A stretch of 36,795 nt of DNA from a virus, in the IMG/VR virus record IMGVR_UViG_3300031951_000567, positions 1-36,795 of that record. The stretch is one strand, 5' to 3'. The notes beneath the pieces are model-generated. The model saw only the letters and a list, made by a program, of their open reading frames with translations. It searched no databases and was not told the DNA's origin. The stretch's first letter is position 1. Every line of letters starts with the position of its first letter. The translations under genes were made by a program, and so were the position numbers. Shown here one piece after another: positions 5,941-27,674 of this stretch.

Positions 5941-6082
5941 ATTTTATAAAGTTGGTTATATTCTAGACGAAGAACAAAAATGGGCTTGTTATTTTGACTT
6001 TAATTGTGCTCAAGAAGCTATGATGAAGATGATTCGACTCGGTATAAATGTGACTGGAATGGAAACACAAATGATGGTGTGA
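5912..6082 (+). CDS. Hypothetical protein (56 aa)
   Basis: Reads MKRNRSQITEFYKVGYILDE, then a beta-like CYFDFN segment and a Met-rich tail (EAMMKMIRLGINVTGMETQM). Its TGA stop lies inside the first box of the recurrent promoter module that follows, so the end of this gene and the start of the module are fused. Function unknown. Confidence 0.65.
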   Translation: MKRNRSQITEFYKVGYILDEEQKWACYFDFNCAQEAMMKMIRLGINVTGMETQMMV

Positions 6083-6150
6083 CAGTCTGTTGGCTGTCCA
6101 CTAACCACGCCGAAGGGGCTCAGATCTTGGTATCTTAGCCATGTTGAGAC
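6080..6150 (+). promoter_or_regulatory. Recurrent promoter module, copy A
   Basis: GACAG (6081-6085) and CTGTC (6094-6098) form an inverted repeat, CGCCGA sits at 6108-6113, then 17 bp, then TATCTT at 6131-6136 and the ATGTTGAGA leader. This copy has an unusually long leader before its gene, with GTCTTGA (6160-6166) able to pair with TCAAGAC (6194-6200) right before the start codon. Confidence 0.75.
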
Positions 6151-6203
6151 ACGGATGTGGTCTTGACGCAACACAAACCCCTTTCAAGTAACTTCAAGAC
6201 AAC

Positions 6204-6587
6204 ATGGCGACTCGTTCTCGCATTGGTGTTCAACTCAAGAATGGCTCTGTCCTTTCTGTGTATTGTCACTGGGATGGCTATCCGGAGTGGAATGGTAAGA
6301 AACTGAAAGAATACTTCAACACTCGGCAGAAAGCTGCGGAATTGGTTGATGGTGGAGACATCAGTGCTCTGTGGACTGATAAAGATTGGGATGGTAAAGA
6401 ACAAGAGTTCGGTACTCTTTACTACGAAGGTCGTGGTGATGTAGACACTGAACCCAATTTGAGTGAATCTTTCCAAGACTTTATCAAGTCCGTGAATGAT
6501 TCTTGGGCGGATTATGCTTACCTCTTTGCCGATGGTGAGTGGAAGTGTTATACTCCTAAAGGTAATGAAGAAAAAATCCCTGCCTGA
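6204..6587 (+). CDS. Conserved phage protein, MATRSRI family (127 aa)
   Basis: The start MATRSRIGVQLKNGSVLSVY followed by CHWDGYPEWNG is a signature I know from a widespread family in tailed phages of cyanobacteria and other bacteria, with no established function. The C-terminal half holds the usual G-D-I-S-A-L-W and W-x-D-Y-A-Y-L-F features. Its length is typical. It leads a short coupled run (6589, 6723, 6872, 7279) behind promoter module A. There is no clear Shine-Dalgarno sequence. The leader can form a 7-bp stem ending four bases before the ATG. Confidence 0.85.
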   Translation: MATRSRIGVQLKNGSVLSVYCHWDGYPEWNGKKLKEYFNTRQKAAELVDGGDISALWTDKDWDGKEQEFGTLYYEGRGDVDTEPNLSESFQDFIKSVNDSWADYAYLFADGEWKCYTPKGNEEKIPA

Positions 6588-6588
6588 T

Positions 6589-6726
6589 ATGGAAAACCTC
6601 ATTCAAGTGAAGTATTACTTCAAGGAACATCCCAACACTACTCTCTCGGTGTTCCTTAAGACTAAAGAACAAGTTGAGGCTTTCAAGGCTAAACATCCCG
6701 ACTATGTTTATGTGGAGGCTAAATGA
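6589..6726 (+). CDS. Hypothetical protein (45 aa)
   Basis: Starts MENLIQVKYYFKEHPNTTLS one base after the preceding stop. An upstream in-frame ATG at 6565, with AAAGG just before it, is the alternative. The alternating strand-helix pattern (VFLKTKEQVEAFKAKHPDYV) suggests a small alpha/beta fold. Not recognised. It overlaps the next start. Confidence 0.65.
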   Translation: MENLIQVKYYFKEHPNTTLSVFLKTKEQVEAFKAKHPDYVYVEAK

Positions 6727-6863
6727 TTTACGTTGTTGAACTTTATGTTGGCGGCACTGTCTTCAAAGAAGAAGTGATTGCTACTAATCCTAAAGATGCC
6801 CGCGAAACTGCTCTTGCTCGTAATCCCAAAGCAAAAGTTGTTGGTGTTAACGTTAAATTCTGA
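6723..6863 (+). CDS. Hypothetical protein (46 aa)
   Basis: Reads MIYVVELYVGGTVFKEEVIA, then TNPKDARETALARNPKAKV. The strand, then N-x-x-x-A helix, then strand layout is echoed in the gene at 18554-18718 (MIYKVLIEFTDNNFEEKIIA, SNASAG). They may be related small alpha/beta proteins. Function unknown. It overlaps the preceding stop by four bases. Confidence 0.65.
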   Translation: MIYVVELYVGGTVFKEEVIATNPKDARETALARNPKAKVVGVNVKF

Positions 6864-6871
6864 AAATTATT

Positions 6872-7279
6872 ATGACTAAACAAAACGGATTTATTGACCC
6901 TGCTGTTGCTGCTATTGCTGTCGGTGTGGTTGTGATTGGTGGTCTCATCTTCATTGGTGGCCCACAATATAATGTGTGGCAACAATCTCTTGCTGGTAAG
7001 GCGGAACTGCAGAAAGCAGAATACACACGTCAGGTTGCTGTTCTTGAAGCACAAGCAAAGAAAGATAGTGCTCAACAACTTGCTGATGCTGAAATCATTC
7101 GTGCTACTGGTGTTGCTAAAGCAAACCAAATCATCGGTGATAGTCTGAAAGATAACCGTGAGTATCTTCAGTACCTGTATATCACTGGTATTGAAGATGG
7201 TGCCAAGAATGGTAACGTGACCATCTATGTTCCCACCGAAGGTGGTATGCCAGTTCCTACTCTTCAAATGAATAAGTGA
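6872..7279 (+). CDS. Membrane-anchored SPFH/HflC-tail-like protein (135 aa)
   Basis: Residues ~9-30 form one strongly hydrophobic segment (VAAIAVGVVVIGGLIFIGG), then a Lys/Glu/Ala-rich helix (AEYTRQVAVLEAQAKKDSAQ, LADAEIIRATGVAKANQIIG) and LKDNREYLQYLYITGIED. The helix and the G-V-A-K-A-N-x-I-I-G motif match the C-terminal half of prohibitin/HflC-type SPFH proteins. The SPFH domain itself is absent, so this is a tail-only version. It probably anchors in the inner membrane with the helix exposed. In known systems such proteins assemble at FtsH protease, but a role here is inference. It overlaps the next, secreted, protein by one base. Confidence 0.75.
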   Translation: MTKQNGFIDPAVAAIAVGVVVIGGLIFIGGPQYNVWQQSLAGKAELQKAEYTRQVAVLEAQAKKDSAQQLADAEIIRATGVAKANQIIGDSLKDNREYLQYLYITGIEDGAKNGNVTIYVPTEGGMPVPTLQMNK

Positions 7280-7665
7280 TGAAACATCTGTTGATTCTTG
7301 TGTCTCTGTTGGTAACTTCTCCTGCATTTGCACAAACAAAAGAAGTCACTAAACAGAAAGTATATCGTCCTTTTACATACGAAACTGCATGTGCATTGGA
7401 AACTCCTCAAGAGTTTCAAGTAGATACATGTAAAGTTGTGGAAACTAGGGAGTCTACTGGTGCTCTTCGCACTCGTAATATCTTCTCTAATCGTTTCCGT
7501 CTTACCATCAAATCTCGTTTTGATAAAGAAAAGGGATTTGTAACTTGGGATTCTCACAATAAGTTTGAGTACAAGTTTGAATATAAAGTTGGTGGTGTAG
7601 ATGGCCTTGGTGCCTGGTCTTATGTAATGCCAGGATTCTTACTTGAGAATGTCTCATGGGACTGA
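7279..7665 (+). CDS. Secreted/periplasmic hypothetical protein with signal peptide (128 aa)
   Basis: The N-terminus MKHLLILVSLLVTSPAFAQT is a textbook signal peptide with probable cleavage after AFA. ATG 7279 overlaps the preceding stop. The in-frame GTG at 7276 adds one residue. The mature part is a beta-rich ~110 aa domain with two Cys (ETACALE, VDTCKVV) that could form a disulphide. No family is recognised. Its position after a membrane-anchored protein suggests an envelope role during infection. Its stop codon overlaps a 19-bp repeat that recurs at 9932-9950. Confidence 0.75.
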   Translation: MKHLLILVSLLVTSPAFAQTKEVTKQKVYRPFTYETACALETPQEFQVDTCKVVETRESTGALRTRNIFSNRFRLTIKSRFDKEKGFVTWDSHNKFEYKFEYKVGGVDGLGAWSYVMPGFLLENVSWD

Positions 7666-7683
7666 TAAGGATCTTTGATCAAT
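7665..7683 (+). repeat. 19-bp direct repeat, left copy
   Basis: ATAAGGATCTTTGATCAAT, overlapping the last base of the preceding stop. It recurs with one mismatch at 9932-9950, and the match extends loosely into the following CCCT bases. The two copies bracket three genes: a small acidic protein, a Cys-peptidase-like protein and the DUF262-HNH protein. Confidence 0.6.
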
Positions 7684-7689
7684 CAGCCC

Positions 7690-7718
7690 TTGACTTTCTT
7701 CCGTTTTTTTCTTATTGT
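7690..7718 (+). promoter_or_regulatory. sigma70-like promoter
   Basis: TTGACT (7690-7695), 17 bp, TATTGT (7713-7718). It lies 24 bases before the start of the small acidic gene at 7742. The match is 5/6 in the -35 and 4/6 in the -10, with ideal spacing. Confidence 0.5.
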
Positions 7719-7741
7719 ACTTTTGTTCAACTGATTCACAC

Positions 7742-7888
7742 ATGAACGACGATTTCAATTTTGATTCCTTTGATGAAGGTGATCTCTATGAATCCTTGAT
7801 GGAATCTAATCCAGAAGATTGGCTTCCTGATGCTGGTATCCGAGAAGAGTTTGATTCTGAAACTCTTGCCCTTCTACGGAACTTTTAG
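7742..7888 (+). CDS. Small acidic protein (48 aa)
   Basis: Reads MNDDFNFDSFDEGDLYESLM and ends in a hydrophobic LALLRNF. About a third of its residues are Asp or Glu, suggesting a DNA-mimic-like or adaptor character, but this is only composition. It follows its own sigma70-like promoter and ends exactly where the next promoter's TATAAT begins. The acidic gene at 26938 is similar in character but not clearly homologous. Confidence 0.6.
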   Translation: MNDDFNFDSFDEGDLYESLMESNPEDWLPDAGIREEFDSETLALLRNF

Positions 7889-7894
7889 TATAAT
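7866..7894 (+). promoter_or_regulatory. sigma70-like promoter
   Basis: TTGCCC (7866-7871), 17 bp, perfect TATAAT (7889-7894). It is embedded in the 3' end of the small acidic gene and drives the gene starting at 7920. Confidence 0.55.
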
Positions 7895-7919
7895 AAAATG
7901 GGTAAGTAGGTGAGTGTTA

Positions 7920-8426
7920 ATGAAGGTTGTTGAAAGACACCGATACGAAAACGGAGAAATCTTTGAGACTAGATCTCTGAGGTTTCTCCCTTTTTATTAC
8001 TCGGAAGAGATTGCTGAATCTCTGATGAAGATCATTCGTAATCAACTTACACCTGACTTGCTGACTAAAAAGTATCGCAAGGAGAATGAAACAAACCCAA
8101 TGTACGGGCATTGTTATCATTCAACTCAAGCCCTATTTTATCTCATGGAACCTCACGATTTGATTCCAATGAGTGGAATAGATTACAGAGGTGATACACA
8201 CTGGTGGTTGTATGATGACCGAGGAGTTATCTATGACACAACCGCAGATCAGTATTACTCTGTGGGACAAGTTCCCCCACATGCTGTTGGAAAGAAAACA
8301 GCTTGGTATGGTTGGAAACAACGACCACACCAAAGATCTCTCACTTTAATCATGAGAGTTCTTGATGCTTGTAACATTGAGTATTGTTACGAAACCATCA
8401 AACCTCAGACGGGGGGCTTGACATAG
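7920..8426 (+). CDS. Conserved phage protein, cysteine-peptidase/transglutaminase-like (168 aa)
   Basis: ATG 7920 follows AGGTGA. The in-frame GTG two codons earlier is unlikely. The conserved core is NPMYGHCYHSTQALFYLM (Cys65), GDTHWWLYDD (His94) and VIYDTTADQYY (Asp106/Asp110). A Cys, then His, then Asp order on this spacing, with the D-x-T-A-D-Q strand, is what papain-fold/transglutaminase-like enzymes show. I recall similar proteins in cyanophages and other phages annotated as hypothetical. The substrate is unknown. It is transcribed from the TTGCCC/TATAAT promoter and ends at the promoter of the DUF262-HNH gene. The assignment rests on motif order only. Confidence 0.65.
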   Translation: MKVVERHRYENGEIFETRSLRFLPFYYSEEIAESLMKIIRNQLTPDLLTKKYRKENETNPMYGHCYHSTQALFYLMEPHDLIPMSGIDYRGDTHWWLYDDRGVIYDTTADQYYSVGQVPPHAVGKKTAWYGWKQRPHQRSLTLIMRVLDACNIEYCYETIKPQTGGLT

Positions 8427-8446: not shown

Positions 8447-8512
8447 CAAAACATCAAAGACACGGACACAATCCCAACTCTTAATTGAGACGGTCAAAAC
8501 TCCAAGTCCTAG

Positions 8513-9916
8513 ATGCAAACCTTACAAACAAAAACCATGAAAACTAACACCAAAACGTACACTCTGACTGTATCTCAACTGGCTTCTCTACAAAAGGACA
8601 CCAAGATTTATCTTGATGAAGCCTTCCAGTCCAATACACGTTGGAATACTGCAATGAATCAAGCATACATTAAGTCTGTGCTTGAAGGTAAAGCAATTAC
8701 CCCCATTACTTTAGGTAAAATCTCTGATCTTTTGAGTTCTATTGAACTTCATTATGGTCCTACTCATTCTGACTATCAATTTTTTAGGGATCTTCTAGAT
8801 CAAGATTTCATCTATATCACGATTGATGGAAATAATCGTGATAACTGCATCTGCAAGTTCCTGAACAATGAGTTTCCCCTCTCTGAAGGGAAATACTATA
8901 TTGAACACAATAACATTGTGTACTTTGAAGCGACTAAGAACAACAAGTATTTCAAAGATCTAGATGCAGAAGTTCGCAACTACATTGAGAACATTTCTCT
9001 GAACACTCTTGTAGTTTTGCAATCTGATCGTAAGGGTCTTGCTGAACTGTTCAGTAACATTAATGAGGGTCTTCCCCTTAATAATCAAGAGAAACGCAAC
9101 GCTACTCCTTGTCGTTTCGGTGCTCTTGTTAGGAATCTTGTTCAAAGTCACTTGAATGGATTTTCTATGTTGTATAGTTCTAAGAACATCAATCGTCGTT
9201 ATCCCGATGAATTGGTTGTGACAATTTCCACAATCGTTGCTCATGGGATAAAGAATCTGGATAAGAATACTCTAGATGCTGCTTATGGTGATTCTACGGT
9301 TGAGGTTATTTCTTTCAACAAAACCGCAACTATTGTTGAACAACTTTCTAAGATTGTTGTCAACTATGGTGCTGCTGGATTTGATGTTGGTGGTAAGAAA
9401 AACTCTAACCTGATTGACTTTGCAATGTTGTTGAACTATCTCAACAATAACTCGATTGTCATCGAAGATTACGAAGCTTTCTACAACTGGTTCACTGAAA
9501 GTCAGGGAGAACGAATTGAAGATCCTACCATTCTCTACTATGGTAAAAAGGGTAATAATCCTCGTAGTTATGCTGGTCTTCTCCGTGGATCTTCTTCCAA
9601 TTTCCTTCAAATCCGACTCAGTAAGTTGGTTGATTCCATCTCTTCTACACCAGACAACGTTCTGACCTTCCGTGACAAAGATCGCAAGTATGATCCTAAG
9701 ATTCGATTCTCTCTTTGGAAATCTCAGGGTGGGCGATGTGCATTGACTGGTGAACCTATTGATGCACGTCACATCTACGATGGATCTGTGACTCATATCG
9801 ACCATAAAGATCCTTGGTCGAAAGGTGGACAAACTACAGTTGAAAATGCACAACTGGTATTTGCAAATGCAAATCTCCGTAAAGGTGCTCAACTCGTAGA
9901 AGTTCCCTCTCTTTGA
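8513..9916 (+). CDS. DUF262 / HNH nuclease domain protein (467 aa)
   Basis: Residues ~30-70 (IYLDEAFQSNTRWNTAMNQA, IKSVLEGKAITPITL) and ~101-118 (ITIDGNNRDNCICKFL) match the ParB-like DUF262 fold, including its D-G-x-x-R motif (105-109). FSNINEGLPLNNQEKRNATP (180-199) is the usual DUF262 follow-on. The C-terminal ~70 residues are an HNH nuclease: GGRCALTGE (Cys409), THIDHKDPWSKGG (His428, His431) and ENAQLVFANANLRKG (Asn445). DUF262-HNH architectures occur in GmrSD-like modification-dependent restriction systems and in phages. Here it could degrade competing or host DNA, or act as a homing-type nuclease, but this is inference. It has its own strong promoter, and a 19-bp repeat follows. Confidence 0.8.
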   Translation: MQTLQTKTMKTNTKTYTLTVSQLASLQKDTKIYLDEAFQSNTRWNTAMNQAYIKSVLEGKAITPITLGKISDLLSSIELHYGPTHSDYQFFRDLLDQDFIYITIDGNNRDNCICKFLNNEFPLSEGKYYIEHNNIVYFEATKNNKYFKDLDAEVRNYIENISLNTLVVLQSDRKGLAELFSNINEGLPLNNQEKRNATPCRFGALVRNLVQSHLNGFSMLYSSKNINRRYPDELVVTISTIVAHGIKNLDKNTLDAAYGDSTVEVISFNKTATIVEQLSKIVVNYGAAGFDVGGKKNSNLIDFAMLLNYLNNNSIVIEDYEAFYNWFTESQGERIEDPTILYYGKKGNNPRSYAGLLRGSSSNFLQIRLSKLVDSISSTPDNVLTFRDKDRKYDPKIRFSLWKSQGGRCALTGEPIDARHIYDGSVTHIDHKDPWSKGGQTTVENAQLVFANANLRKGAQLVEVPSL

Positions 9917-9952: not shown

Positions 9953-9999
9953 CCCTCTTGCCCCGCAACGGGTAAGAGGGTATTCTAGCTATGTTGAAA
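9953..9999 (+). promoter_or_regulatory. Recurrent promoter module, copy M (hairpin + TATTCTAGCTATGTTGA)
   Basis: CCCTCTTGCCC (9953-9963) pairs with GGGTAAGAGGG (9970-9980) except for one G-T, and TATTCT follows directly (9981-9986) with the AGCTATGTTGA leader. The GGACAG and YGCCRA boxes of the full modules are absent, so only the 3' half is conserved. The hairpin may also end transcription of the nuclease gene. Confidence 0.6.
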
Positions 10000-10149
10000 C
10001 GCAATTCAATGAATCTCCGACCACACCAAGAACGTGCAGTTGAGGTAATGCAACTGCATAAAAAGGGTCAAATCATTGTTCCCACTGGTGGTGGTAAAAC
10101 AATGAAGATGATCAAAGACGCAATGATTCAATTCCAGGAACAGAAATGA
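9991..10149 (+). CDS. N-terminal part of split SF2 helicase (Walker A piece, 52 aa)
   Basis: Reads MLKRNSMNLRPHQERAVEVM, then GQIIVPTGGGKTMKMIKD, and stops at TGA 10147. RPHQ (10-13) is a Q-motif-like start and PTGGGKT (31-37) is helicase motif I. The start may be ATG 9991 inside the leader of module M or ATG 10009 (M7). Every later helicase motif lies in the next frame (10146-11255), whose ATG overlaps this stop as ATGA. In relatives I know, these segments are one continuous protein. Either two coupled subunits, a -1 recoding event or a frameshift mutation would explain it. Confidence 0.75.
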   Translation: MLKRNSMNLRPHQERAVEVMQLHKKGQIIVPTGGGKTMKMIKDAMIQFQEQK

Positions 10150-11255
10150 TCGAAATGCAATCACAAACTGAAAAAACGATTGTTGTTGTTGCTCCTCGTA
10201 TTCTTCTCGCAGAACAACTTTGTTCCGAGTTTCTGGAGTTTATCACCAACGCAAGTGTGATGCACGTTCACAGTGGTGAAACTCATCACTTTTCGACTAC
10301 CAAACCCCAAGAGATTTCTAACTGGTGGGTGAATACTCGTGGTCACAAACTAATCTTCACCACTTACAACTCTCTGGAGAGGTTGCAACAATCTCGCATC
10401 AAGGTTGACACCATTTACTTTGACGAAGCTCACAACTCCGTCAAACGCAACTTCTTCCCTGCAACTGAATACTTCAGTCAGGAAGCTGACCGTTGTTACT
10501 TCTTCACTGCGACTCCCAAACATTCACTCGCAGTTGGTAAGCCTGGGATGAATGATGTAGAAGTTTATGGCCAAGTCATTTGTAATGTTCCTGCACCTGA
10601 ACTTGTCGAAGGTGGTTACATCCTGCCTCCGAAAGTTATCGCAAAACAACTTCCGATGGTAAAGTCTGGTAAGATTCCTGCAGATCGTGACTGTGAGAAT
10701 CTGATTGAGACTCTGGATGAATGTGGTAAGGGTAAAGTGTTGATCTGTGCGAAAGCTACCAAACAGATCTCTGCACTGATGTCTGAGACTGACTTCATTC
10801 AACAACTGCAAGATCGCGGATTCTCTTACCTCTACATCACCGCAAAGACTGGTGCAATTATTGATGGTAAGAAGGTGAATCGTGAGGTGTTCTTTGATAC
10901 TCTCTCTGCATGGGGTAAGGATGACTCTAAGAAGTTCGTTGTTCTCCACCACTCCATCCTTTCTGAGGGTATCAATGTGTCAGGTCTGGAAGGTGTCATC
11001 TTTATGCGTTCGATGGACTACATTGGTATCTCCCAAACCATCGGCCGTGTGATTCGGATGCACCATGATGATGCAGCTCGCATCCATAGTGGTGAACTTG
11101 TCCCTGGTGATGTTGACAACTATACCAAATCTTTCGGTCTAGTTGTTGTTCCTGTCTTCAACAAAGTTGGGATCTCTACTCACCAGAAGATCCAAGCTGT
11201 GGTGGATACGATCTTCCAAAAAGGAATGCCCGCTATTTCTGTCGTAAAACGATGA
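10146..11255 (+). CDS. SF2 DEAD/DEAH helicase, motifs Ia-VI (369 aa)
   Basis: Motif Ia is TIVVVAPRILLAEQL (11-25), motif Ib lies at FTTYNSL, motif II is DEAH (93-96), motif III is TATP (121-124), motif V is SEGINVSG (273-280) and motif VI is QTIGRVIR (297-304). The protein starts just after where motif I should be. That motif is encoded in the overlapping upstream frame, so alone this product cannot bind ATP normally. It is like the cyanophage DEAD-type helicases related to type III restriction and UvsW-like translocases, acting on DNA or RNA duplexes. The first ~10 residues (MIEMQSQTEK) have no helicase match and look like linker created by the split. Confidence 0.85.
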   Translation: MIEMQSQTEKTIVVVAPRILLAEQLCSEFLEFITNASVMHVHSGETHHFSTTKPQEISNWWVNTRGHKLIFTTYNSLERLQQSRIKVDTIYFDEAHNSVKRNFFPATEYFSQEADRCYFFTATPKHSLAVGKPGMNDVEVYGQVICNVPAPELVEGGYILPPKVIAKQLPMVKSGKIPADRDCENLIETLDECGKGKVLICAKATKQISALMSETDFIQQLQDRGFSYLYITAKTGAIIDGKKVNREVFFDTLSAWGKDDSKKFVVLHHSILSEGINVSGLEGVIFMRSMDYIGISQTIGRVIRMHHDDAARIHSGELVPGDVDNYTKSFGLVVVPVFNKVGISTHQKIQAVVDTIFQKGMPAISVVKR

Positions 11256-15543: not shown

Positions 15544-15547
15544 TATG

Positions 15548-15614
15548 TGACGCTTTGAGAACTGTCACAGGGGCTCTTTACAGAGCCCCTTTTTGCATGT
15601 ATTGTGGCTACATG
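15548..15614 (+). promoter_or_regulatory. Recurrent promoter module, copy N (variant with terminator inside)
   Basis: TGTGAC (15546-15551) and GTCACA (15564-15569) form an inverted repeat. TATTGT (15600-15605) lies 52 bases from the first box and is followed by GGCTAC and then the gene's ATG (15612), six bases after the hexamer. The -35-like box is replaced by a rho-independent terminator. Confidence 0.6.
15569..15594 (+). terminator. Rho-independent terminator
   Basis: AGGGGCTCT (15569-15577), a four-base loop, AGAGCCCCT (15582-15590), then TTTT: a perfect 9-bp stem with a T run. It ends the transcript that begins near 14920 and insulates the nucleotidyltransferase gene. Confidence 0.85.
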
Positions 15615-16556
15615 AAGAACACTCACCTCGAACATCCCGAAGATTCTGTACTTCTCGGTAAGAAGGCTGTGCAGGATACTATCAACTATCTGCGTAACTG
15701 CAAAGGTGATTGTAGTGTGAAGTATGATGGTGCTCCTGCCATTGTGTTTGGGACGCATCCTGTCACTAATCAATTCTTTGTAGGGACGAAAAGTGTATTC
15801 AATAAGAAGAAAGTTAAGGTTAATTATACTCACGCTGACATCGAAAAGAATCACGGTAATAATTCCAAAGTTGCAGGAATACTTCACACTTGCCTTGAAG
15901 TATTGCCTAAGTTGGAGGGTGTTTACCAAGGTGATTTTATTGGGTTTGGTGGTACTAACCGATTCACCCCTAATACTATCACTTATACCTTCAATACCGA
16001 TAGCGATTCTTTTCGTAATTGTTCTGTGGTCTTTGCTGCTCATACACGGTATTCTGGAGATACGTCATGCGTTGAAGGTTCGGAGAACCCGCTCAACAAA
16101 CTGAGTGCATCTTTTGATGTTCCTGAGTATCTCAAACACAACTTTATGTCAACTTACTTTGTGAATGGTGATGCACAATTTACCTCCCGTCGTCGTAGGA
16201 TTGATTACCTTCTTGGCCTTGCAAGTTTGGTTAGCAATTTTGTTAGATACCCTGAAGAAAAAGAAGTAGCAAATCTCAAAGTTGCGATCAATAAGTGCAT
16301 CCGAGAGAATGTTCCTGTTGATTGTATTGACGGCAATCTTCTCCTGTTGTTCAACCTGTTGACCAAAGCCAAGGATTTGATTGTAGAAGGAATCACCGTC
16401 ACTGGTGATCAAGTTGATGCAGTGATTGATCTCGGTGTGGATTATGTTGCGTCTGGCCATGAAGGTTATGTTCACTCTAATGATTATGGGACTTTCAAGT
16501 TAGTCAACCGTCGTATGTTCTCTTACTTTAACTTCACCAAACCAAAAGGTTGGTAG
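15612..16556 (+). CDS. Ligase-like nucleotidyltransferase, DUF6267-like (314 aa)
   Basis: ATG 15612 is chosen over the TTG at 15555, which lies before the terminator. It opens MKNTHLEHPEDSVL, the usual start of this cyanophage family. Motifs of covalent nucleotidyltransferases appear in order: motif I KYDGAP (Lys37, Asp39, Gly40), then FVGTKSVFN, a motif III-like EGVYQGDFIGFG, motif IV HEGYVHS (Glu284) and motif V FKLVNR (Lys296). This fits an enzyme forming a lysine-NMP intermediate, as in RNA/DNA ligases and capping enzymes. The substrate is not established. RNA or DNA end repair is the natural guess. The ATG is six bases from the module's TATTGT, suggesting leaderless translation. Confidence 0.75.
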   Translation: MKNTHLEHPEDSVLLGKKAVQDTINYLRNCKGDCSVKYDGAPAIVFGTHPVTNQFFVGTKSVFNKKKVKVNYTHADIEKNHGNNSKVAGILHTCLEVLPKLEGVYQGDFIGFGGTNRFTPNTITYTFNTDSDSFRNCSVVFAAHTRYSGDTSCVEGSENPLNKLSASFDVPEYLKHNFMSTYFVNGDAQFTSRRRRIDYLLGLASLVSNFVRYPEEKEVANLKVAINKCIRENVPVDCIDGNLLLLFNLLTKAKDLIVEGITVTGDQVDAVIDLGVDYVASGHEGYVHSNDYGTFKLVNRRMFSYFNFTKPKGW

Positions 16557-16628
16557 GGACAGTTGCCTGGCTGTCCACCAGAGGCGCCAGGATCGTTCCT
16601 GGCATCGTATCTTAGCTATGTTGAGAGG
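16557..16628 (+). promoter_or_regulatory. Recurrent promoter module, copy B
   Basis: GGACAG (16557-16562) and CTGTCC (16571-16576) inverted repeat, CGCCAG (16585-16590), spacer of 17 containing part of the hairpin CCAGGA-TCGT-TCCTGG (16587-16602), TATCTT (16608-16613), leader ATGTTGAGAGG. The leader ATG is in frame with the gene, but the GAGAGG Shine-Dalgarno sequence favours ATG 16636. Confidence 0.8.
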
Positions 16629-18141: not shown

Positions 18142-18148
18142 CCTAGTG

Positions 18149-18217
18149 TGACGGTTGGCGGACTGGACACCAAACCCGCCAACCGCAGCCAGATCCTGTA
18201 TCTTGGCCATGTTGAGA
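18149..18217 (+). promoter_or_regulatory. Recurrent promoter module, copy C
   Basis: TGACGG at 18149, CGCCAA at 18177-18182, 16-bp spacer, TATCTT at 18199-18204, then GGCCATGTTGAGAG. In this copy the stem has shifted: GGTTGGCGG (18153-18161) pairs perfectly with CCGCCAACC (18176-18184), placing the -35-like box inside the stem. Confidence 0.75.
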
Positions 18218-18720: not shown

Positions 18721-18858
18721 ATGTTCACATCCTTGACTATATTTGTTGCATGGTTTGCCTTTGGTTACTGTATTGCTGACATTATCACGAATTGGCGTAG
18801 TCAAAAACAAATTGATGAGCTCGTCAAAGAGATTGTAAAAGAAGGCGATAAACAATGA
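18721..18858 (+). CDS. Single-pass small membrane protein (45 aa)
   Basis: Residues ~3-23 (TSLTIFVAWFAFGYCIADII) are a transmembrane helix and the rest is a charged helix (QKQIDELVKEIVKEGDKQ). The preceding TTAGGAGAATAATT gives a strong Shine-Dalgarno sequence. It overlaps the RlpA-like gene by four bases, which suggests the two are made together and could cooperate at the envelope. Confidence 0.65.
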   Translation: MFTSLTIFVAWFAFGYCIADIITNWRSQKQIDELVKEIVKEGDKQ

Positions 18859-19160
18859 TCCTCGCTGGATTGATGTGTGGAATCGCAACATTTTATGGTG
18901 TTGGTGATGGATTCCACGGCCAAACAACTGCAAGCGGAAAATCATTCAATGCCTATGGTCTGACTGCTGCTCATCCATACTTGAGAATGGGCAGCAAATT
19001 ACGCATCACAAATCAGGATAACATGAAACAAGTTATCGTGACTGTGAATGATCGTGGACCGTACAGCCATGCGGATATTGATCTTTCGTATGGGGCTTTT
19101 AGGAGAATTGCTTCACCTTCACAAGGTAACGCAGTTGTATGTTTTAGGGTGATCGGTTAG
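18855..19160 (+). CDS. RlpA-like double-psi beta-barrel protein (101 aa)
   Basis: The sequence follows the RlpA/DPBB pattern throughout: GIATFYGVGDGFHGQTTASG, LTAAHPYLRMGSKLRIT, QVIVTVNDRGPYSHADIDLS, then YGAFRRIA. The conserved N-D-R-G-P-Y (Asp66) and I-D-L-S (Asp76) are intact. RlpA-type proteins cleave or bind peptidoglycan glycan strands. There is no real signal peptide, so export would need a holin or a partner such as the membrane protein just upstream. An auxiliary lysis or wall-processing role is my inference. Confidence 0.8.
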   Translation: MILAGLMCGIATFYGVGDGFHGQTTASGKSFNAYGLTAAHPYLRMGSKLRITNQDNMKQVIVTVNDRGPYSHADIDLSYGAFRRIASPSQGNAVVCFRVIG

Positions 19161-19343
19161 TTACAACAATTCATTTTTGATGAATCTGATTGCAGGGGAT
19201 GACCTAATCCCCTACTGGGGTAAAATTGCAGAAAAATCATTGTTTGCTCAAACTCAGATCCCTTGCCACGACAGGGATCTCAAAGAGAGATCGGTGCGAC
19301 GCTTTGAGGGTTGGACAGATCAGAGGCAAACCGAGCCAGAGTG
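19161..19343 (+). other. Noncoding stretch with two hairpins
   Basis: Between the RlpA-like gene and module D I find no convincing gene. An open frame at 19177-19389 overruns the module and looks like chance. AGGGGAT (19194-19200) pairs with ATCCCCT (19207-19213), and AGATCCCT (19256-19263) pairs with AGGGATCT (19273-19280), both perfectly. Neither has a T run. A small RNA or processed 3' end is possible. Confidence 0.5.
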
Positions 19344-19414
19344 TGACAATCCCCAAACCGCACACCAATTCAACCAAAGGTGGCCATGAGGATGTATCTT
19401 AGCTATGTTGAGAC
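19344..19414 (+). promoter_or_regulatory. Recurrent promoter module, copy D (degenerate)
   Basis: TGACAA at 19344, no CTGTCC partner, AACCAA in the place of YGCCRA (19372-19377), 17 bp, TATCTT at 19395-19400, then AGCTATGTTGAGA. The 51-bp spacing is kept although the palindrome is lost. Confidence 0.65.
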
Positions 19415-20044: not shown

Positions 20045-20054
20045 TGTAGCAATG

Positions 20055-20126
20055 TGACAGTCTGCGGGCTGTCCACTGATCGTGCCGAAGGGGGCTGTGG
20101 CCCTGTATCTTAGCCATGTTGAGAGG
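20055..20126 (+). promoter_or_regulatory. Recurrent promoter module, copy E
   Basis: GACAG (20056-20060) and CTGTC (20069-20073) inverted repeat, TGCCGA at 20083-20088, 17-bp spacer with an AGGG...CCCT stem, TATCTT at 20106-20111, leader CATGTTGAGAGG. The start codon follows nine bases after the AGAGG. Confidence 0.8.
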
Positions 20127-20975: not shown

Positions 20976-20980
20976 GTATG

Positions 20981-21050
20981 TGCCAGTTGGCGGGCTGTCC
21001 ACCAAATCCGCCAAAGGGGCTCAGGGCCCTGTATCTTAGCCATGTTGAGA
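20981..21050 (+). promoter_or_regulatory. Recurrent promoter module, copy F
   Basis: TGCCAG at 20981, CTGTCC at 20995-21000, CGCCAA at 21009-21014, 17 bp, TATCTT at 21032-21037, leader CATGTTGAGA. The first box no longer matches CTGTCC, but TTGGCGG (20987-20993) pairs with CCGCCAA downstream, so a stem is kept in another register, as in copy C. Confidence 0.75.
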
Positions 21051-21971: not shown

Positions 21972-22127
21972 ATGGTCGTTCACTTCTATGAAGGTCAGTC
22001 TTACTCTTGGGAGTATTCCAACCGCAGCTATGATGATAGCGGATGCTGGGAGGATTATCTGACTGCCGATGAGTATGAAGATGCTCTAGATCGTAAGCGG
22101 TTTGAGCAATCAAATCGAGACTGGTAG
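21972..22127 (+). CDS. Hypothetical protein (51 aa)
   Basis: Reads MVVHFYEGQSYSWEYSNRSY, then DDSGCWEDYLTADEYEDALD. Aromatic and acidic. It ends with TAG at 22125, whose last base is the first base of module G, so the gene and the regulatory element directly abut. Function unknown. Confidence 0.65.
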   Translation: MVVHFYEGQSYSWEYSNRSYDDSGCWEDYLTADEYEDALDRKRFEQSNRDW

Positions 22128-22196
22128 GCCAATTCACTGGCTGCACACTAAAGCTGCCGAGTGCAGCCAGAACCTGTATCTTGGCCATGTTGAGAG
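22127..22196 (+). promoter_or_regulatory. Recurrent promoter module, copy G
   Basis: GGCCAA at 22127, TGCCGA at 22155-22160, 16 bp, TATCTT at 22177-22182, leader GGCCATGTTGAGAGG. The stem is the longest of all copies: CTGGCTGCAC (22137-22146) pairs perfectly with GTGCAGCCAG (22161-22170) across the -35-like box. Confidence 0.75.
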
Positions 22197-23160: not shown

Positions 23161-23265
23161 AACGCTTTTTCCGGTTTCTGCCGTAGTGGTGGCCATGAGT
23201 CTCACCGCTTGCGACTTGAGACTGGCTGGGGGCTGGGTCAGATCCTACCAAACCTGGCCGGTGTG
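23161..23265 (+). other. Noncoding stretch with stem-loop
   Basis: No gene is visible between the terminator and module H. AGTCTCA (from about 23198) can pair with TGAGACT (about 23217), with flanking GCC/GGC extending the stem. The segment is GC-richer than its surroundings. Its role is unknown. Confidence 0.4.
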
Positions 23266-23329
23266 TGACAATCGGGTGGCTGTCCACTGATCCCGCCGAG
23301 AGGGCCCGTTAGGCCCTATATTGGCCACA
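23266..23329 (+). promoter_or_regulatory. Recurrent promoter module, copy H (leaderless variant)
   Basis: TGACAA at 23266 with GACA...TGTC symmetry, CGCCGA at 23294-23299, 17 bp, TATATT at 23317-23322, then GGCCAC and ATG. The hairpin AGGGCC (23301-23306) / GGCCCT (23312-23317) fills the spacer. The ATG starts six bases after the hexamer. Confidence 0.75.
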
Positions 23330-23694
23330 TGAGGGAGAGGGAACGACCTCCCCCCACCAAACCATTCTCCGCTCAAACCATGCGTAAGATCGAAACTCTG
23401 ATGAACCAGGCCATCCAGAAAGAAATCGACTGGAAGCTGGACAACACTGAAGTAATCAGCTGCTCCAACGTTTCTGATGTCTACCTGCATGGCAACCTGA
23501 TTGCTCGTATCGGTGAAACTTGGATGGAACTGTTTGACGGTGGCTGGCAGACTGCTACCACCAAGTCCCGTCTGAATGCTATTCTCTCTGCACACGGCTG
23601 CCCTGGTGAGCGTGTCTTCCAACAGAAAGGCCAGTGGTTCATCACCATCAACGGAGCTAAGGTTCCTTTCTTCTCGGGTATGCGTCTGAACTGA
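23329..23694 (+). CDS. Conserved cyanophage hypothetical protein (121 aa)
   Basis: The core is DVYLHGNLIARIGETWMELF followed by GGWQTATTKSRLNAILSAHG, a pattern I recall from cyanophage genomes and other phage proteins of unknown role. It probably folds as a small beta-sandwich. ATG 23329 comes six bases after TATATT of module H, implying a leaderless message. ATG 23380 (MRKIETLMNQ) is the alternative if the Pro-rich first 17 residues are not translated. Confidence 0.7.
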   Translation: MRERERPPPTKPFSAQTMRKIETLMNQAIQKEIDWKLDNTEVISCSNVSDVYLHGNLIARIGETWMELFDGGWQTATTKSRLNAILSAHGCPGERVFQQKGQWFITINGAKVPFFSGMRLN

Positions 23695-24193: not shown

Positions 24194-24202
24194 GCAACAA
24201 TA

Positions 24203-24272
24203 GGACAGTCTGATGGCTGTCCACTAAATACGCCGCACCCAGCCAGAACTGGTATCTTAGCCATGTTGAGAG
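24203..24272 (+). promoter_or_regulatory. Recurrent promoter module, copy I
   Basis: GGACAG (24203-24208) pairs with CTGTCC (24217-24222), CGCCGC at 24231-24236, 16 bp, TATCTT at 24253-24258, leader CATGTTGAGAG. TGGCTG in the first stem could alternatively pair with CAGCCA in the spacer. Confidence 0.8.
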
Positions 24273-24660: not shown

Positions 24661-24661
24661 C

Positions 24662-24808
24662 ATGCGAATCGCTCTTCTGATTGCTACTCTTGCTCTTGGG
24701 CTGAAGACTGGTCTTGCTGCTCATGCGACTGTGAATGCTTATCAAGAAGCACAAGCCGAACGGATGTGCCAGATTGATCCAAGCTACTGCGGACTGAAGC
24801 AAAAATAG
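24662..24808 (+). CDS. Small secreted or membrane-attached protein (48 aa)
   Basis: ATG 24662 is chosen. The frame extends back to 24602 only over the preceding gene. Residues 1-20 (MRIALLIATLALGLKTGLAA) look like a signal peptide or signal anchor. The rest, with two Cys (ERMCQIDPSYCGLKQK), could form a disulphide outside the membrane. Its stop abuts module J. Confidence 0.65.
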   Translation: MRIALLIATLALGLKTGLAAHATVNAYQEAQAERMCQIDPSYCGLKQK

Positions 24809-24873
24809 GACAGTTGGATGGCTGTCCACTCAATCCGCCGAACCGACCCGTTTGGCCCTATATTGGCCACATG
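24808..24873 (+). promoter_or_regulatory. Recurrent promoter module, copy J (leaderless variant)
   Basis: GGACAG (24808-24813) and GCTGTCC (24821-24827) inverted repeat, CGCCGA at 24836-24841, 17 bp, TATATT at 24859-24864, GGCCAC, then ATG 24871. It overlaps the stop codon of the gene before it. Confidence 0.8.
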
Positions 24874-25197: not shown

Positions 25198-25214
25198 TCG
25201 GTTAGGGTTAGGTG

Positions 25215-25284
25215 GGACAGTCATCTGGCTGTCCACCAAATCCGCCGAGACCAGCCACCTGATGTATTCTAGCCATGTTGAGAG
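25215..25284 (+). promoter_or_regulatory. Recurrent promoter module, copy K
   Basis: GGACAG (25215-25220) and CTGTCC (25229-25234) inverted repeat, CGCCGA at 25243-25248, 16 bp, TATTCT at 25265-25270, leader AGCCATGTTGAGAGG. Confidence 0.8.
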
Positions 25285-25297
25285 GAATCCGAACCGA

Positions 25298-25474
25298 ATG
25301 AAAGTCTACGCTGTGATCGCTGGAATTGATTACGAAGGCGAAGTGTTTGATACTCTGCGCCTGTTCGATTGCAAGTCTGCCGCAGAAGCATATGAGGCAG
25401 AACTTGATGCAAACTATGATTATACCCTGATGGAAGCCCGTGAGGTGATCATGGAATCTGCAATCGCTGCTTGA
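25298..25474 (+). CDS. Hypothetical protein (58 aa)
   Basis: Reads MKVYAVIAGIDYEGEVFDTL, then FDCKSAAEAYEAELDANYDY. A strand-strand-helix protein of the V-x-x-G-I/E-x-Y-E-G-E type common in phages, with no known function. ATG 25298 follows GAGAGG of module K. The leader ATG at 25275 is out of frame and meets a TGA that overlaps this start, while a longer in-frame extension from ATG 25262 would run through the promoter and is rejected. Ends at TGATCATG. Confidence 0.7.
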   Translation: MKVYAVIAGIDYEGEVFDTLRLFDCKSAAEAYEAELDANYDYTLMEAREVIMESAIAA

Positions 25475-25476
25475 TC

Positions 25477-25638
25477 ATGAAAAACTATCGAGTTCGTGTT
25501 GAGACTTATGATGGCTGTGTCACGATTTGGTATGAGAAATCCAAGGCCAAATCCGCAGACAAATTGATTCTCAATCGTGTCTACAATCAGCTCTGTGGGC
25601 TGAATGTCAAAGAAATCGAAGTTACTCCTTCCGTCTGA
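25477..25638 (+). CDS. Hypothetical protein (53 aa)
   Basis: Reads MKNYRVRVETYDGCVTIWYE, then KSKAKSADKLILNRVYNQLC and a final KEIEVTPSV strand. Same strand-helix-strand topology as its neighbours. Function unknown. Confidence 0.65.
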   Translation: MKNYRVRVETYDGCVTIWYEKSKAKSADKLILNRVYNQLCGLNVKEIEVTPSV

Positions 25639-25665
25639 ACTTTTCACACTAATTAACACAAACTC

Positions 25666-25839
25666 ATGAATCGCCAAGAACTTCAAGATCAGCTCATTCA
25701 GACAATCCTCGATGGTATGGATCTGAAATGTTTGCTTCAAATGTGTTACGATGTGATGGATGAGAATTATGATAAGTATTCGGATGAAGAATTGATTACT
25801 GAATGTGAAGAATACTATCCCGAACTTCTAGAGGGCTGA
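25666..25839 (+). CDS. Conserved small phage protein (57 aa)
   Basis: Reads MNRQELQDQLIQTILDGMDL, then QMCYDVMDENYDKYSDEELI and ends YYPELLEG. The Y-x-x-Y-S-D-E-E-L-x-x-E-x-x-x-Y-Y-P-E-L-L-E end is a signature of a small family I recall in cyanophages and some cyanobacterial contigs. Function unknown. The AC-rich leader has no strong Shine-Dalgarno sequence. Confidence 0.75.
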   Translation: MNRQELQDQLIQTILDGMDLKCLLQMCYDVMDENYDKYSDEELITECEEYYPELLEG

Positions 25840-25910
25840 TTCGCCATTCGCAAATAGAGAATGAGATGCGCTCTAAAGACACTCAAACTCACCAACACCA
25901 ACACACTCAA

Positions 25911-26036
25911 ATGATCGCAACTCGTAAAGACTTCTTCATCGCTGTGCTTGATCAGTTTGCTACTAATGGTAACGAACTTCTGCAACTTCTGGATGACATT
26001 GTGAACGGCGAATGTGAATGCTATCTTGAAGACTGA
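25911..26036 (+). CDS. Hypothetical protein (41 aa)
   Basis: Reads MIATRKDFFIAVLDQFATNG, then NELLQLLDDIVNGECECYLE. Helical. A 71-base gap with an AC-rich leader precedes it. Function unknown, supported mainly by the clean frame and strand. Confidence 0.55.
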   Translation: MIATRKDFFIAVLDQFATNGNELLQLLDDIVNGECECYLED

Positions 26037-26075
26037 TTAACTGTTCATTTCTTACACTTTTTCTTCTTTTCTCTC

Positions 26076-26243
26076 ATGACTCTTCAATCTGCAATCGCTC
26101 AACTTCGCGCTGCTCGCAACGGCGCTGAAATGCTCCAAGTTCTCGACATGCTCGCACAAGACTCTGTAGGTTACACCTATGCCGAGTCCCCACAAATCGC
26201 CAAGGTTCTCGGAGTGCCCACACTTGAAGCTGTAGAGCTCTGA
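26076..26243 (+). CDS. Hypothetical protein (55 aa)
   Basis: Reads MTLQSAIAQLRAARNGAEML, then QVLDMLAQDSVGYTYAESPQ and ends with EAVEL. The opening A-I-A-x-L-R helix and later acidic end look like a small helical DNA- or protein-binding domain. Not recognised. Its last codons carry the -35 element of the next promoter. The pyrimidine-rich leader (26037-26075) is unusual. Confidence 0.6.
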   Translation: MTLQSAIAQLRAARNGAEMLQVLDMLAQDSVGYTYAESPQIAKVLGVPTLEAVEL

Positions 26244-26252
26244 TGGTATAAT
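26224..26252 (+). promoter_or_regulatory. sigma70 promoter with extended -10
   Basis: TTGAAG (26224-26229), 17 bp, TATAAT (26247-26252) preceded by TGG, giving a full extended -10. It begins inside the end of the preceding gene and leads into the stem-loop at 26253-26279. Confidence 0.7.
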
Positions 26253-26279
26253 AAAGGGGGCTCACATCCCCCCCTTTTT
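26253..26279 (+). terminator. GC hairpin with T run overlapping the transcription start
   Basis: AAAGGGGG (26253-26260) can pair with CCCCCTTT (26270-26277), followed by more T. As a terminator it ends incoming transcripts. For the promoter just upstream, the expected start (~26259) falls inside the stem, so new transcripts escape the hairpin. Confidence 0.7.
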
Positions 26280-26281
26280 GT

Positions 26282-26446
26282 ATGACTGATACGGAGAAAC
26301 TTCTCGAACTTTCAGAGTTAATCAGACAGATCATCTTTGCTCTAGAGATGACACAATACGAAATCTCCGATTCACAACAAAAGAATAATGTTCTAGAACT
26401 CTCTGAGATCTATCACCAGAAGATGATTGCTATTCTAACCACATGA
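26282..26446 (+). CDS. Hypothetical helical protein (54 aa)
   Basis: Reads MTDTEKLLELSELIRQIIFA, then LEMTQYEISDSQQKNNVLEL. Helical hairpin-like. It starts three bases after the T run of the hairpin. ATGA overlap with the next gene. Function unknown. Confidence 0.65.
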   Translation: MTDTEKLLELSELIRQIIFALEMTQYEISDSQQKNNVLELSEIYHQKMIAILTT

Positions 26447-26571
26447 AGAAACACCATCTGATTGTTGCTTCAATCATCCCAGCTATCCTACTCACATTCG
26501 CAACGATTCGTGATAGCTGCGCAAACCCCGATTATGCCAATTACTTCACAGAATCATGCAAAACAAAGTAG
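26443..26571 (+). CDS. Small secreted protein with signal peptide (42 aa)
   Basis: Reads MKKHHLIVASIIPAILLTFA, then TIRDSCANPDYANYFTESCK. Positively charged start, hydrophobic core and two Cys in the short mature part, like the protein at 24662. Probably exported or a signal anchor. Function unknown. It overlaps the next gene by 16 bases in another frame. Confidence 0.6.
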   Translation: MKKHHLIVASIIPAILLTFATIRDSCANPDYANYFTESCKTK

Positions 26572-26711
26572 AAAACTGGGTGGACAATCTAACACTCACA
26601 CAACAACAAAAAGTTTACAACGAGATCGTGGATTATTTCACAAGTGAGGTGATTAAAGAGGTGTTATCAAAGTATGACAATTCTCTTGACATTGAACATC
26701 TAAACGTATAA
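26556..26711 (+). CDS. Hypothetical helical protein (51 aa)
   Basis: Reads MQNKVENWVDNLTLTQQQKV, then YNEIVDYFTSEVIKEVLSKY. Helical. The W-V-D-x-L-T opening looks conserved. The promoter for the next gene (TTGACA at 26686) lies in its last codons. Function unknown. Confidence 0.65.
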   Translation: MQNKVENWVDNLTLTQQQKVYNEIVDYFTSEVIKEVLSKYDNSLDIEHLNV

Positions 26712-26714
26712 AAT
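26686..26714 (+). promoter_or_regulatory. sigma70-like promoter
   Basis: Perfect TTGACA (26686-26691), 17 bp, TAAAAT (26709-26714, 5/6). It overlaps the end of the preceding gene. The leader is about 30 bases with AAGGA before ATG 26753. Confidence 0.65.
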
Positions 26715-26752
26715 AGTAACGTACTTTCATTCACACTTAAGGACACACACTT

Positions 26753-26938
26753 ATGCAAACCATCAACAACAAAGTTACACGTTACAGAGTTACCTTGGAC
26801 TTTACAGTTGATACATCTAACTGTGTAAGTCCTAAAGAATGGAATTGGGCTTCACTTCTCGAACTCGGTAACAACGAATCAGTCAATGAGGTTTATGTAG
26901 AGAACCTCGGAGAATATACCACTCGTAGGAGTAAGTAA
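26753..26938 (+). CDS. Conserved small phage protein (61 aa)
   Basis: Reads MQTINNKVTRYRVTLDFTVD, then CVSPKEWNWASLLELGNNES and NEVYVENLGEY. The P-x-x-W-N-W-x-x-L-L-x-L pattern followed by V-x-V-x-V-E is a motif I recall from cyanophages, with no known function. It has its own promoter. The stop TAA shares its A with the next ATG. Confidence 0.7.
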   Translation: MQTINNKVTRYRVTLDFTVDTSNCVSPKEWNWASLLELGNNESVNEVYVENLGEYTTRRSK

Positions 26939-27087
26939 TGGACCTCACTACCGCTCACCCTTACGGGGAAGAAAGTTTGTTCGATTTTGAACAAGAGATC
27001 AATGATCAGTATGCTGCTCAGTATGATGAAGATATGATCTTCGATGATTACTCTAGTGGCATAGATGCTGAGAGTTATGATCCTTGA
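26938..27087 (+). CDS. Small acidic protein (49 aa)
   Basis: Reads MDLTTAHPYGEESLFDFEQE, then INDQYAAQYDEDMIFDDYSS. About a third of the residues are Asp or Glu. It resembles the acidic protein at 7742 in composition. It directly precedes the origin-like noncoding region. Function unknown. Confidence 0.65.
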   Translation: MDLTTAHPYGEESLFDFEQEINDQYAAQYDEDMIFDDYSSGIDAESYDP

Positions 27088-27109
27088 TTGATCTCTGATT
27101 GTTTATACT

Positions 27110-27156
27110 GTTTTCCACAGCTTTATGATACCTTTGTGGAAAAAGCTGTGGAAAAC
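27110..27156 (+). repeat. 15-bp inverted repeat with three TTTTCCACA boxes
   Basis: Positions 27110-27124 are the exact reverse complement of 27142-27156. Boxes: TTTTCCACA at 27111-27119 (+), TGTGGAAAA at 27135-27143 and 27147-27155 (-). TTTTCCACA is the cyanobacterial form of the DnaA box. Confidence 0.8.
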
Positions 27157-27374
27157 AAGCCATTAAAAAAAGGCTAAAAAAATCAAGCTTGTGTGAAAGC
27201 TTTCTCGTTTATGTTCTCTCTGTGGCCCCTCTGATGGCTTATAAAAAAGCCTCTGAGACCTTGTAATCTTAGCGGGCAGGCTATCACACGACCGCATAAA
27301 TGTCAAGAGACCCCCCACATAAGTCTCCGGGACCACACAGTTTGAGCAACATAAGGTCTCACAGTTTCTTATAG

Positions 27375-27416
27375 TTTTCCACAGCACTTGTGGAAAAAGT
27401 CTATAAGTTTTCCACA
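27375..27416 (+). repeat. Second group of three TTTTCCACA boxes
   Basis: TTTTCCACA at 27375-27383 and 27408-27416 on the + strand, TGTGGAAAA at 27389-27397 on the - strand. The first two form a short inverted repeat. Confidence 0.8.
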
Positions 27417-27418
27417 GT

Positions 27419-27430
27419 CTTATGAGCACT
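27419..27430 (+). repeat. 12-bp direct repeat CTTATGAGCACT, copy 1
   Basis: Directly follows the last TTTTCCACA box. Identical copies occur at 28239-28250 and 28297-28308. Confidence 0.7.
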
Positions 27431-27453
27431 CTAAGTCCCCCACATCTCGGAGC

Positions 27454-27482
27454 TTGACATAAGCTCTCTGAGGCCTTATAAT
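27454..27482 (+). promoter_or_regulatory. Perfect-consensus sigma70 promoter
   Basis: TTGACA (27454-27459), 17 bp, TATAAT (27477-27482): a full match with ideal spacing. It lies just right of the DnaA-like boxes and faces right, with no gene until 27681. It could make an origin transcript/primer RNA or drive the gene at 27681. Confidence 0.8.
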
Positions 27483-27602
27483 AACTCTGTGGGAGTGCAT
27501 AAAGGGGCTGAGTGCTTAAGCTCTTTGAGCCGGCTTAAGTAAAGCTCAAGCCACAAAGACTCATGAGCCTACCATAGAACCTTGACAACTGAGATACACA
27601 AT

Positions 27603-27674
27603 GGACACTTATCTAACTGGCCACAGAATGTGCCAGAGGGAGCCAGATCCCGTATATTAGCCATGTTGAGAGGA
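27603..27674 (+). promoter_or_regulatory. Recurrent promoter module, copy L
   Basis: GGACAC at 27603, TGCCAG at 27631-27636, 16 bp, TATATT at 27653-27658, leader AGCCATGTTGAGAGG. The stem is CTGG-CACA (27617-27625, one bulge) with TGTGCCAG (27629-27636). Confidence 0.75.

Follow-up and report, generated by a model that had tools for sequence, protein, structure and literature searches.

The 36.8-kb virus record IMGVR_UViG_3300031951_000567 (positions 1 to 36,795, the whole stretch analysed and hereafter the window) carries 14 copies of a promoter module in which a 24-bp inverted repeat, the operator, stands at a fixed distance upstream of a -10 hexamer. We propose, with a probability of roughly three in four, that each copy would act as an activator-dependent promoter for the host RNA polymerase, with a dimeric protein seated on the 24-bp dyad. 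A paired upstream operator in place of the usual recognition box suggests that a protein may switch these genes on. By megablast, the nearest named relatives of a 12-kb stretch of the window are the T4-like cyanophages S-CREM1, DSL-LC02 and S-PM2. Judged by sequence, the promoter class is spread through T4-like cyanophages and is not peculiar to the window phage.

The operator follows the consensus TGKGMCAGTY-N4-RRCTGKCMCA, and its centre lies about 41.5 bp before the -10 hexamer, that is, at about -53 from the expected start if the hexamer is presumed to begin at -12. This geometry was recovered from both ends. When loci of the window, of IMG/VR and of the phages were anchored on the -10 hexamer and leader block, with the upstream sequence left free in the pattern, at least 192 distinct sequences were obtained, and 141 remained once near-duplicates (>=85% identity) had been removed. 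Among the matches listed, to which all counts from the anchored sets refer, a conserved element begins 53 bp upstream of the hexamer and expectation-maximisation alignment resolves it into the palindrome TG[TG]G[AC]CAGT[TC]-N4-[AG][AG]CTG[TG]C... The dyad score exceeds the 99% level of shuffled upstream regions in 129 of the 141 copies, and the spacing lies within one base of a single value in 133. In the reverse direction, IMG/VR was scanned with the dyad alone, by a pattern without promoter sequence, which left 104 distinct contexts among the matches listed after short flanks, duplicates and loci below L129 had been dropped. A -10-like hexamer lies at an offset of 49-55 from the dyad in 97 of them (83 forward and 14 on the reverse strand only), compared with 12.3 of 104 shuffled contexts on one strand, and the forward offset peaks at 52-53. 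The dyad and the -10 hexamer thus predict each other.

The consensus sequences of the two half-sites are nearly identical and are degenerate at matching positions (A/C at letter five and T/C at letter ten), as expected for the site of a homodimer. Over the ten symmetric positions, the arms show about as many Watson-Crick pairs as independent arms would (85 observed and 85.5 expected at positions 8/17, 66 and 63.1 at 10/15), in statistics that ignore the relatedness of the copies; in a stricter set of 73 the permutation p falls below 0.05 at one position pair (5/20). Because the half-sites vary independently, the dyad is better read as a protein-dimer site than as an RNA hairpin. Taken together, the offset fixed from both anchors, the lack of clear arm covariation and the family-wide conservation strongly support the proposal of the initial annotation that these modules would be promoter/operator elements recognised by a protein.

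The search of related cyanomyoviruses which that annotation had recommended did find the operator with its -10 hexamer in Syn9, S-PM2, P-SSM2, P-SSM4, S-CRM01 and others. We scored operator plus -10 at an offset of 51-56 in 16 records, with the reversed sequence as control, and matches exceeded the control in 12 records, among them 11 of the 12 Kyanoviridae records including the window. Matches and control matches were 14 and 0 in the window, 11 and 0 in Syn9, 14 and 0 in P-SSM4, 11 and 1 in DSL-LC02, 19 and 1 in S-CRM01, 24 and 0 in S-PM2, 14 and 0 in S-CAM9, 27 and 0 in S-T4 (partly double-counted in the terminal repeat), 11 and 1 in Syn19, 22 and 2 in P-SSM2 and 8 and 0 in S-TIM5. The predicted -10 hexamers of Syn9 begin at 43165, 44827, 47257, 48611, 49131, 51053, 53049, 127544, 130405 and 148795. 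With a stricter search pattern, 12 of 17 records had matches, and the reversed form of that pattern had none. Conservation between phages is largely limited to the dyad, the spacing to the -10 hexamer and that hexamer itself.

The sites precede both small accessory genes and conserved genes. They do precede the accessory cassettes to which the initial annotation had assigned them but are not confined to these, as they also stand before cobS, gp150-like and DUF6267 genes. Upstream regions reach at least 15.8 bits for the gp150-like gene in 11 of 11 phages, for cobS in 10 of 11 and for DUF6267 in 9 of 12. Of 1500 random 240-nt windows, 1.9% attain this score; as real copies are among them, the p values are conservative. 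Reading by eye through the annotated portions of the Syn9 and S-PM2 genomes that were retrieved, we noticed no match before a virion structural gene; several matches lie outside those portions. The copies are clustered: 12 of the 13 full copies first listed for the window lie at 15.5-27.7 kb, and clusters occur near the uvsW-like genes of S-CAM9 and Syn9.

The sign of regulation is suggested by the -35 region. Operator score and -35 score are anticorrelated over the 141 copies (rho -0.39, uncorrected for relatedness and computed with approximate matrices). TTG stands at -35 in 9 of the 11 copies without an operator, where the hexamers include TTGACA, TTGACC, TTGCCC, TTGCCG and TTGTAC, versus 18% of the 115 copies with a strong operator. 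At cobS, S-CREM1 lacks the operator that all ten other phages have there, and its promoter reads TTGACC-17-TATAAT. Such a trade-off points to an activator, for which a site that substitutes for the -35 contact would be needed. A dimeric DNA-binding protein, encoded by phage or host, would bind the dyad centred at about -53 and recruit polymerase, probably through the alpha C-terminal domain, to a good -10 hexamer accompanied by a degenerate -35. Transcription would start 5-8 nt after the hexamer, presumably early in infection.

Several observations weigh against this reading. Matches in S-SM2 only equal the control (4 and 4), and those in S-CREM1 barely exceed it (5 and 1); nonetheless, an operator precedes both the gp150-like gene and cobS of S-SM2. 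The operator plus -10 scan gave no match, and no control match, in the T7-like phages Syn5 and P-SSP7 or in the siphovirus PSS2. One match in Syn9 (20251) is false, lying inside a tRNA gene, and one in S-PM2 (94828) falls within an annotated coding sequence. The -10 hexamer is poor in 3 of the 30 positive upstream regions (S-CREM1 gp150-like, S-CRM01 cobS and DSL-LC02 DUF6267), and the element is missing from 3 of the 12 DUF6267 upstream regions. As for the trade-off, the -35 and -10 matrices are our own approximations, 5 of the 11 copies without an operator are apparently orthologous, representing a single promoter upstream of the uvsW-like helicase, and two more (L040 and L045) may be chance matches, so that the independent operator-less cases are fewer than 11. 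Pairing between the arms is slightly above expectation at 2 of the 10 positions, 4/21 and 6/19 (permutation p 0.035 and 0.014).

If the dyad does serve an activator, that protein may be a transcription factor of the host which the phages exploit, to which we give somewhat less than an even chance, or a phage factor that is virion-borne or made first, which is slightly favoured. For a host factor it can be said that early genes are read before phage proteins exist, so that the factor must pre-exist, and that the site is common to phages of freshwater, estuarine and marine hosts. In addition, no phage gene family matching the site distribution emerged when the open reading frames (ORFs) of Syn9, P-SSM4 and S-CRM01 were compared with those of 16 records. 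Among 388 cyanobacterial genomes, 100 contain a match with at most 2 mismatches, slightly more than the approximately 71 that by our count match the reversed pattern. An exact scan of genome contigs gave 36 stretches, of which 8, above their share, are cyanobacterial (Moorena, Prochloron, Limnothrix, Coleofasciculus and UBA11371). However, the site occurs in only 29 of 151 genomes of the host family versus, by our count, 42 with the reversed pattern; the operator class is thus not evident there, the outcome of a host-genome search that the initial annotation had called for. Synechococcus, Prochlorococcus and Cyanobium are absent from the titles of all 36 exact stretches, and the host sites inspected lack the -10 geometry and show no conserved regulon: those before glycerol kinase genes, before a flavodiiron-like gene and in Cyanobiaceae were rejected as near chance, intracoding or without that geometry. 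The lack of host-family enrichment speaks mildly for a phage product.

A very basic protein of 45-49 amino acids ending in RGQGK/R is encoded in the window at 29832-29978 and was found by translated search in 11 Kyanoviridae records and S-TIM5, with a weak match in the siphovirus PSS2. It was considered as the regulator because it was the sole family shared by the nine operator phages chosen and apparently missing from S-SM2, and was set aside when a translated search found it in S-SM2, which also carries the operator and so leaves the distribution test powerless. Two genomes of about 1.7 Mb (G084 and G158; loci L321 and L322, at about 985-1010) contain a palindrome close to AACTGTCACATGTGACAGTT, in which the operator half-site points outwards; it is intergenic and lies about 600 bp before a flavorubredoxin-like gene.

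The dyad could instead be the operator of a repressor or of a dual switch, under which the genes would stay silent until a signal or a phage product relieves the block. Dyads that bind dimeric repressors are frequent among phage operators, and sequence data give no measure of the direction of control. We nevertheless regard this as unlikely, as the -53 position lies outside the -35 and -10 elements and the -35 is degenerate where the operator is present and better where it is absent, S-CREM1 cobS included, which would be expected of a substitute for the -35.

It is also quite improbable that the inverted repeat is an RNA stem-loop, serving as terminator or processing site, with the spacing a by-product of cassette duplication. 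The arms could pair, slightly more often than expected at the two positions given above, the modules often closely follow stop codons, and in 43 of 184 copies the stretch between operator and -10 contains a terminator-like hairpin followed by a T run, compared with 1.0% of shuffled spacers. The rule for these hairpins is our own and may miss weak ones. However, arm covariation as a whole is not beyond chance, no T run of its own follows the dyad in the 13 copies of the initial annotation, and the spacing to the -10 hexamer is kept even where spacer and leader are unrelated. Together with the absence of any Rfam hit at the gathering threshold within the window, the unclear covariation led us to reject the RNA reading.

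This alternative in its pure form would equate the modules with the promoter(early) stem-loop (PeSL) cassettes of T4-type phages, reportedly the subject of work by Arbiol in 2010 and Comeau in 2014. PeSLs are described as having a stem-loop terminator in every cassette and as mediating recombination between cassettes. Like PeSLs, our modules form compact promoter-terminator cassettes repeated in the hyperplastic regions of T4-type genomes, which are rich in small accessory genes. They differ in the operator dyad at a fixed offset, the degenerate -35, the presence at core genes and a main inverted repeat without clear covariation. Most copies, 12 of the 14 in the window among them, have no hairpin that satisfies our rule, so that the class taken together falls outside a PeSL definition that requires the stem-loop. 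Those promoters that do bear a hairpin probably also close the upstream operon, as in the PeSL idea. A passage in PMC4503421 holds that PeSLs, given their sparseness in S-PM2, do not account for the ORFanage region of that phage; the 15 operator plus -10 matches (13 on the + and 2 on the - strand) in the first 25 kb of S-PM2 bear on that statement.

That the copies are a mere lineage repeat, a mobile cassette boundary or recombination site with no promoter function, is very improbable: although 10 of the 14 window modules share the leader [AG]GC[CT]ATGTTGAGA and the flanks of the copy at 357 resemble two places in S-PM2 (8573 and 9853), phages retain mainly the dyad, spacing and -10 in common and orthologous genes keep the element at the frequencies given above. 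A long shared leader is clear in the window only, among the phages listed. Leader identity is 0.339 within and 0.315 between phages, a difference that no permutation out of 200 equalled (after removal of duplicates and of copies with an operator score under 11, which reduced 184 copies to 167); within and between differ so little that leader homogenisation across phages was rejected.

The initial annotation knew of no described cyanophage promoter class with this layout, a claim that is now doubtful. The Syn9 transcriptome study of Doron et al. from 2016 is said to report a novel regulatory element that controls early genes, with host-like promoters driving middle genes; these elements are reportedly conserved in T4-like cyanophages and metagenomes and differ from the T4 paradigm. 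From this description, the window element is probably the same as the Syn9 early element. The two share the phage family, including Syn9, where we find 11 matches (one of them false), and are widespread in T4-like cyanophages. Judged against that description, the additions made here are the dyad half-site model, the two-way offset, the independence of the half-sites, the -35 trade-off, the orthologous footprints and the host-genome test. The motif was not found in print in the portions of the cyanophage literature searched.

Other phage systems offer partial parallels. The late promoters activated by P2 Ogr and P4 Delta have a dyad near -55, a poor -35 and a good -10, and their activator probably contacts the alpha subunit of RNA polymerase. 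The likeness to our modules is one of geometry only; the sequence and width of the dyad are different, and Ogr and Delta serve late genes. Like the MotA/AsiA middle promoters of T4, the modules would replace the -35 contact by a phage-dedicated one and keep the -10, but none of the 14 window copies has a TGCTT MotA-box core between operator start and -10. Neither the 14 modules nor any other part of the window, on either strand, contains the T4 late promoter TATAAATA.

All 13 full copies named in the initial annotation are present on the + strand. Each consists of an operator and a -10 hexamer: 6078-6136 (operator 6078-6101, TATCTT at 6131), 15546-15605 (15546-15569, TATTGT at 15600), 16555-16613 (16555-16578, TATCTT at 16608), 18147-18204 (18147-18170, TATCTT at 18199), 19342-19400 (weak operator 19342-19365, TATCTT at 19395), 20053-20111 (20053-20076, TATCTT at 20106), 20979-21037 (20979-21002, TATCTT at 21032), 22125-22182 (weak operator 22125-22148, TATCTT at 22177), 23264-23322 (23264-23287, TATATT at 23317), 24201-24258 (24201-24224, TATCTT at 24253), 24806-24864 (24806-24829, TATATT at 24859), 25213-25270 (25213-25236, TATTCT at 25265) and 27601-27658 (27601-27624, TATATT at 27653). 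One copy had been overlooked, at 357-415 on the + strand (operator 357-380, TATAAT at 410-415, ATG at 440). The symmetric operator plus -10 score finds these 14 dyads in the window and none in the reversed control; 13 are best on the + strand, and that at 15546 is slightly better when read backwards. A repeat search independently placed 12 of the 13 copies in families D1-D3, the copy at 15548 (operator start 15546) not being among the families listed. The 15546 copy, one of the two in the window with a terminator-like spacer hairpin (GGGGCTC/GAGCCCC followed by T5), precedes the DUF6267 gene at 15612-16556; that at 23264 precedes an ORF ending at 23694, of which the part 23380-23694 matches Kyanoviridae Gp96; and that at 27601 lies upstream of a DUF7249 gene.

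The details of the module could also be refined. The GGACAG-like box is real and its first base lies 50-52 bp before the -10 hexamer in 13 of 13 copies, but it is only the left half of the dyad, which continues into GGCTGTCCAC. A YGCCRN hexamer is found 16-17 bp before the -10 in 11 of 13, which confirms the position of the proposed YGCCRA box, now redefined as a degenerate -35 region. No TTG-initial hexamer occurs at a spacing of 16-18 bp in any of the 13, in agreement with the reported absence of TTGACA. The -35 of a canonical host sigma-70 promoter is likewise lacking from all 14 window copies, none having TTG there; two come within 2 mismatches of TTGACA, with TTTACA (15546) and GTGCCA (27601). 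That most copies end in AGCCATGTTGAGAGG was too strong, since the exact sequence is present in 3 of 13, but the looser leader pattern given above holds for 10 of the 13. In three copies the leader GGCYACATG places an in-frame ATG (15612, 23329 and 24871) 6 nt after the -10 hexamer, so that those mRNAs could be nearly leaderless. The placement of every copy between a stop codon and the first gene of a cassette is loosely true: most operators overlap the upstream stop or begin within about 20 bp of it, except for gaps of 177-184 bp at 19344 and 23266 and for 27603, where no + strand ORF of 35 codons ends less than 400 bp upstream. The supposed partial copy at 9953 shares only the -10 and leader and has an operator score of -9.0. 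This element (9953-9986, + strand) is a promoter of another type that has no operator; its -35 hexamer TTGCCC (9958-9963) lies inside a hairpin (CCCTCTT/AAGAGGG) and is separated by a 17-bp spacer from TATTCT at 9981-9986.

Just upstream of the operator-less promoter lies an HNH endonuclease gene (8513-9916), possibly a homing-type insertion. The uvsW-like helicase (10009-11255) seems split: by hand reading, an ORF with ATG at 10009 and a GGGKT motif ends in a TGA (10147-10149) that overlaps the ATG (10146) of a 369-amino-acid ORF in another frame, and the upstream DNA of helicase homologues encodes similar residues. This may be a true split gene, a frameshift or a sequencing error. Among the accessory cassettes, 18855-19160 encodes a 101-amino-acid RlpA-like protein with a double-psi beta-barrel (DPBB_1, E 2e-19). 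The roughly 500 bp at 27090-27600, just upstream of the 27601 copy, hold no wholly internal + strand ORF of at least 60 amino acids and contain six DnaA-box-like TTTTCCACA/TGTGGAAAA words at 27111-27416, which makes this region a candidate replication origin.

Cyanomyoviruses infect the most abundant photosynthesisers, reportedly without the T4 early and middle switch factors: the relevant passage of PMC2984593 gives them as lacking alt, modA, modB, motA and asi, and describes their early and middle control as unclear as of 2010. A defined operator at a fixed offset in well-studied phages would be a bait for finding what drives these genes, and the predicted starts can be compared with existing transcriptomes of Syn9, S-PM2 and P-SSM2. 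The operator may also serve for annotating operons in metagenomic cyanophages. More tentatively, and with the odds somewhat against it, T4-like cyanophages, having no MotA, AsiA, Alt or Mod, might run a large early/delayed-early regulon through a dedicated dimeric activator at -53 that replaces the -35 contact and is either carried in the virion or first made from operator-less promoters of the TTGACA type. If true, this would be a transcription switch of a design different from that of T4.

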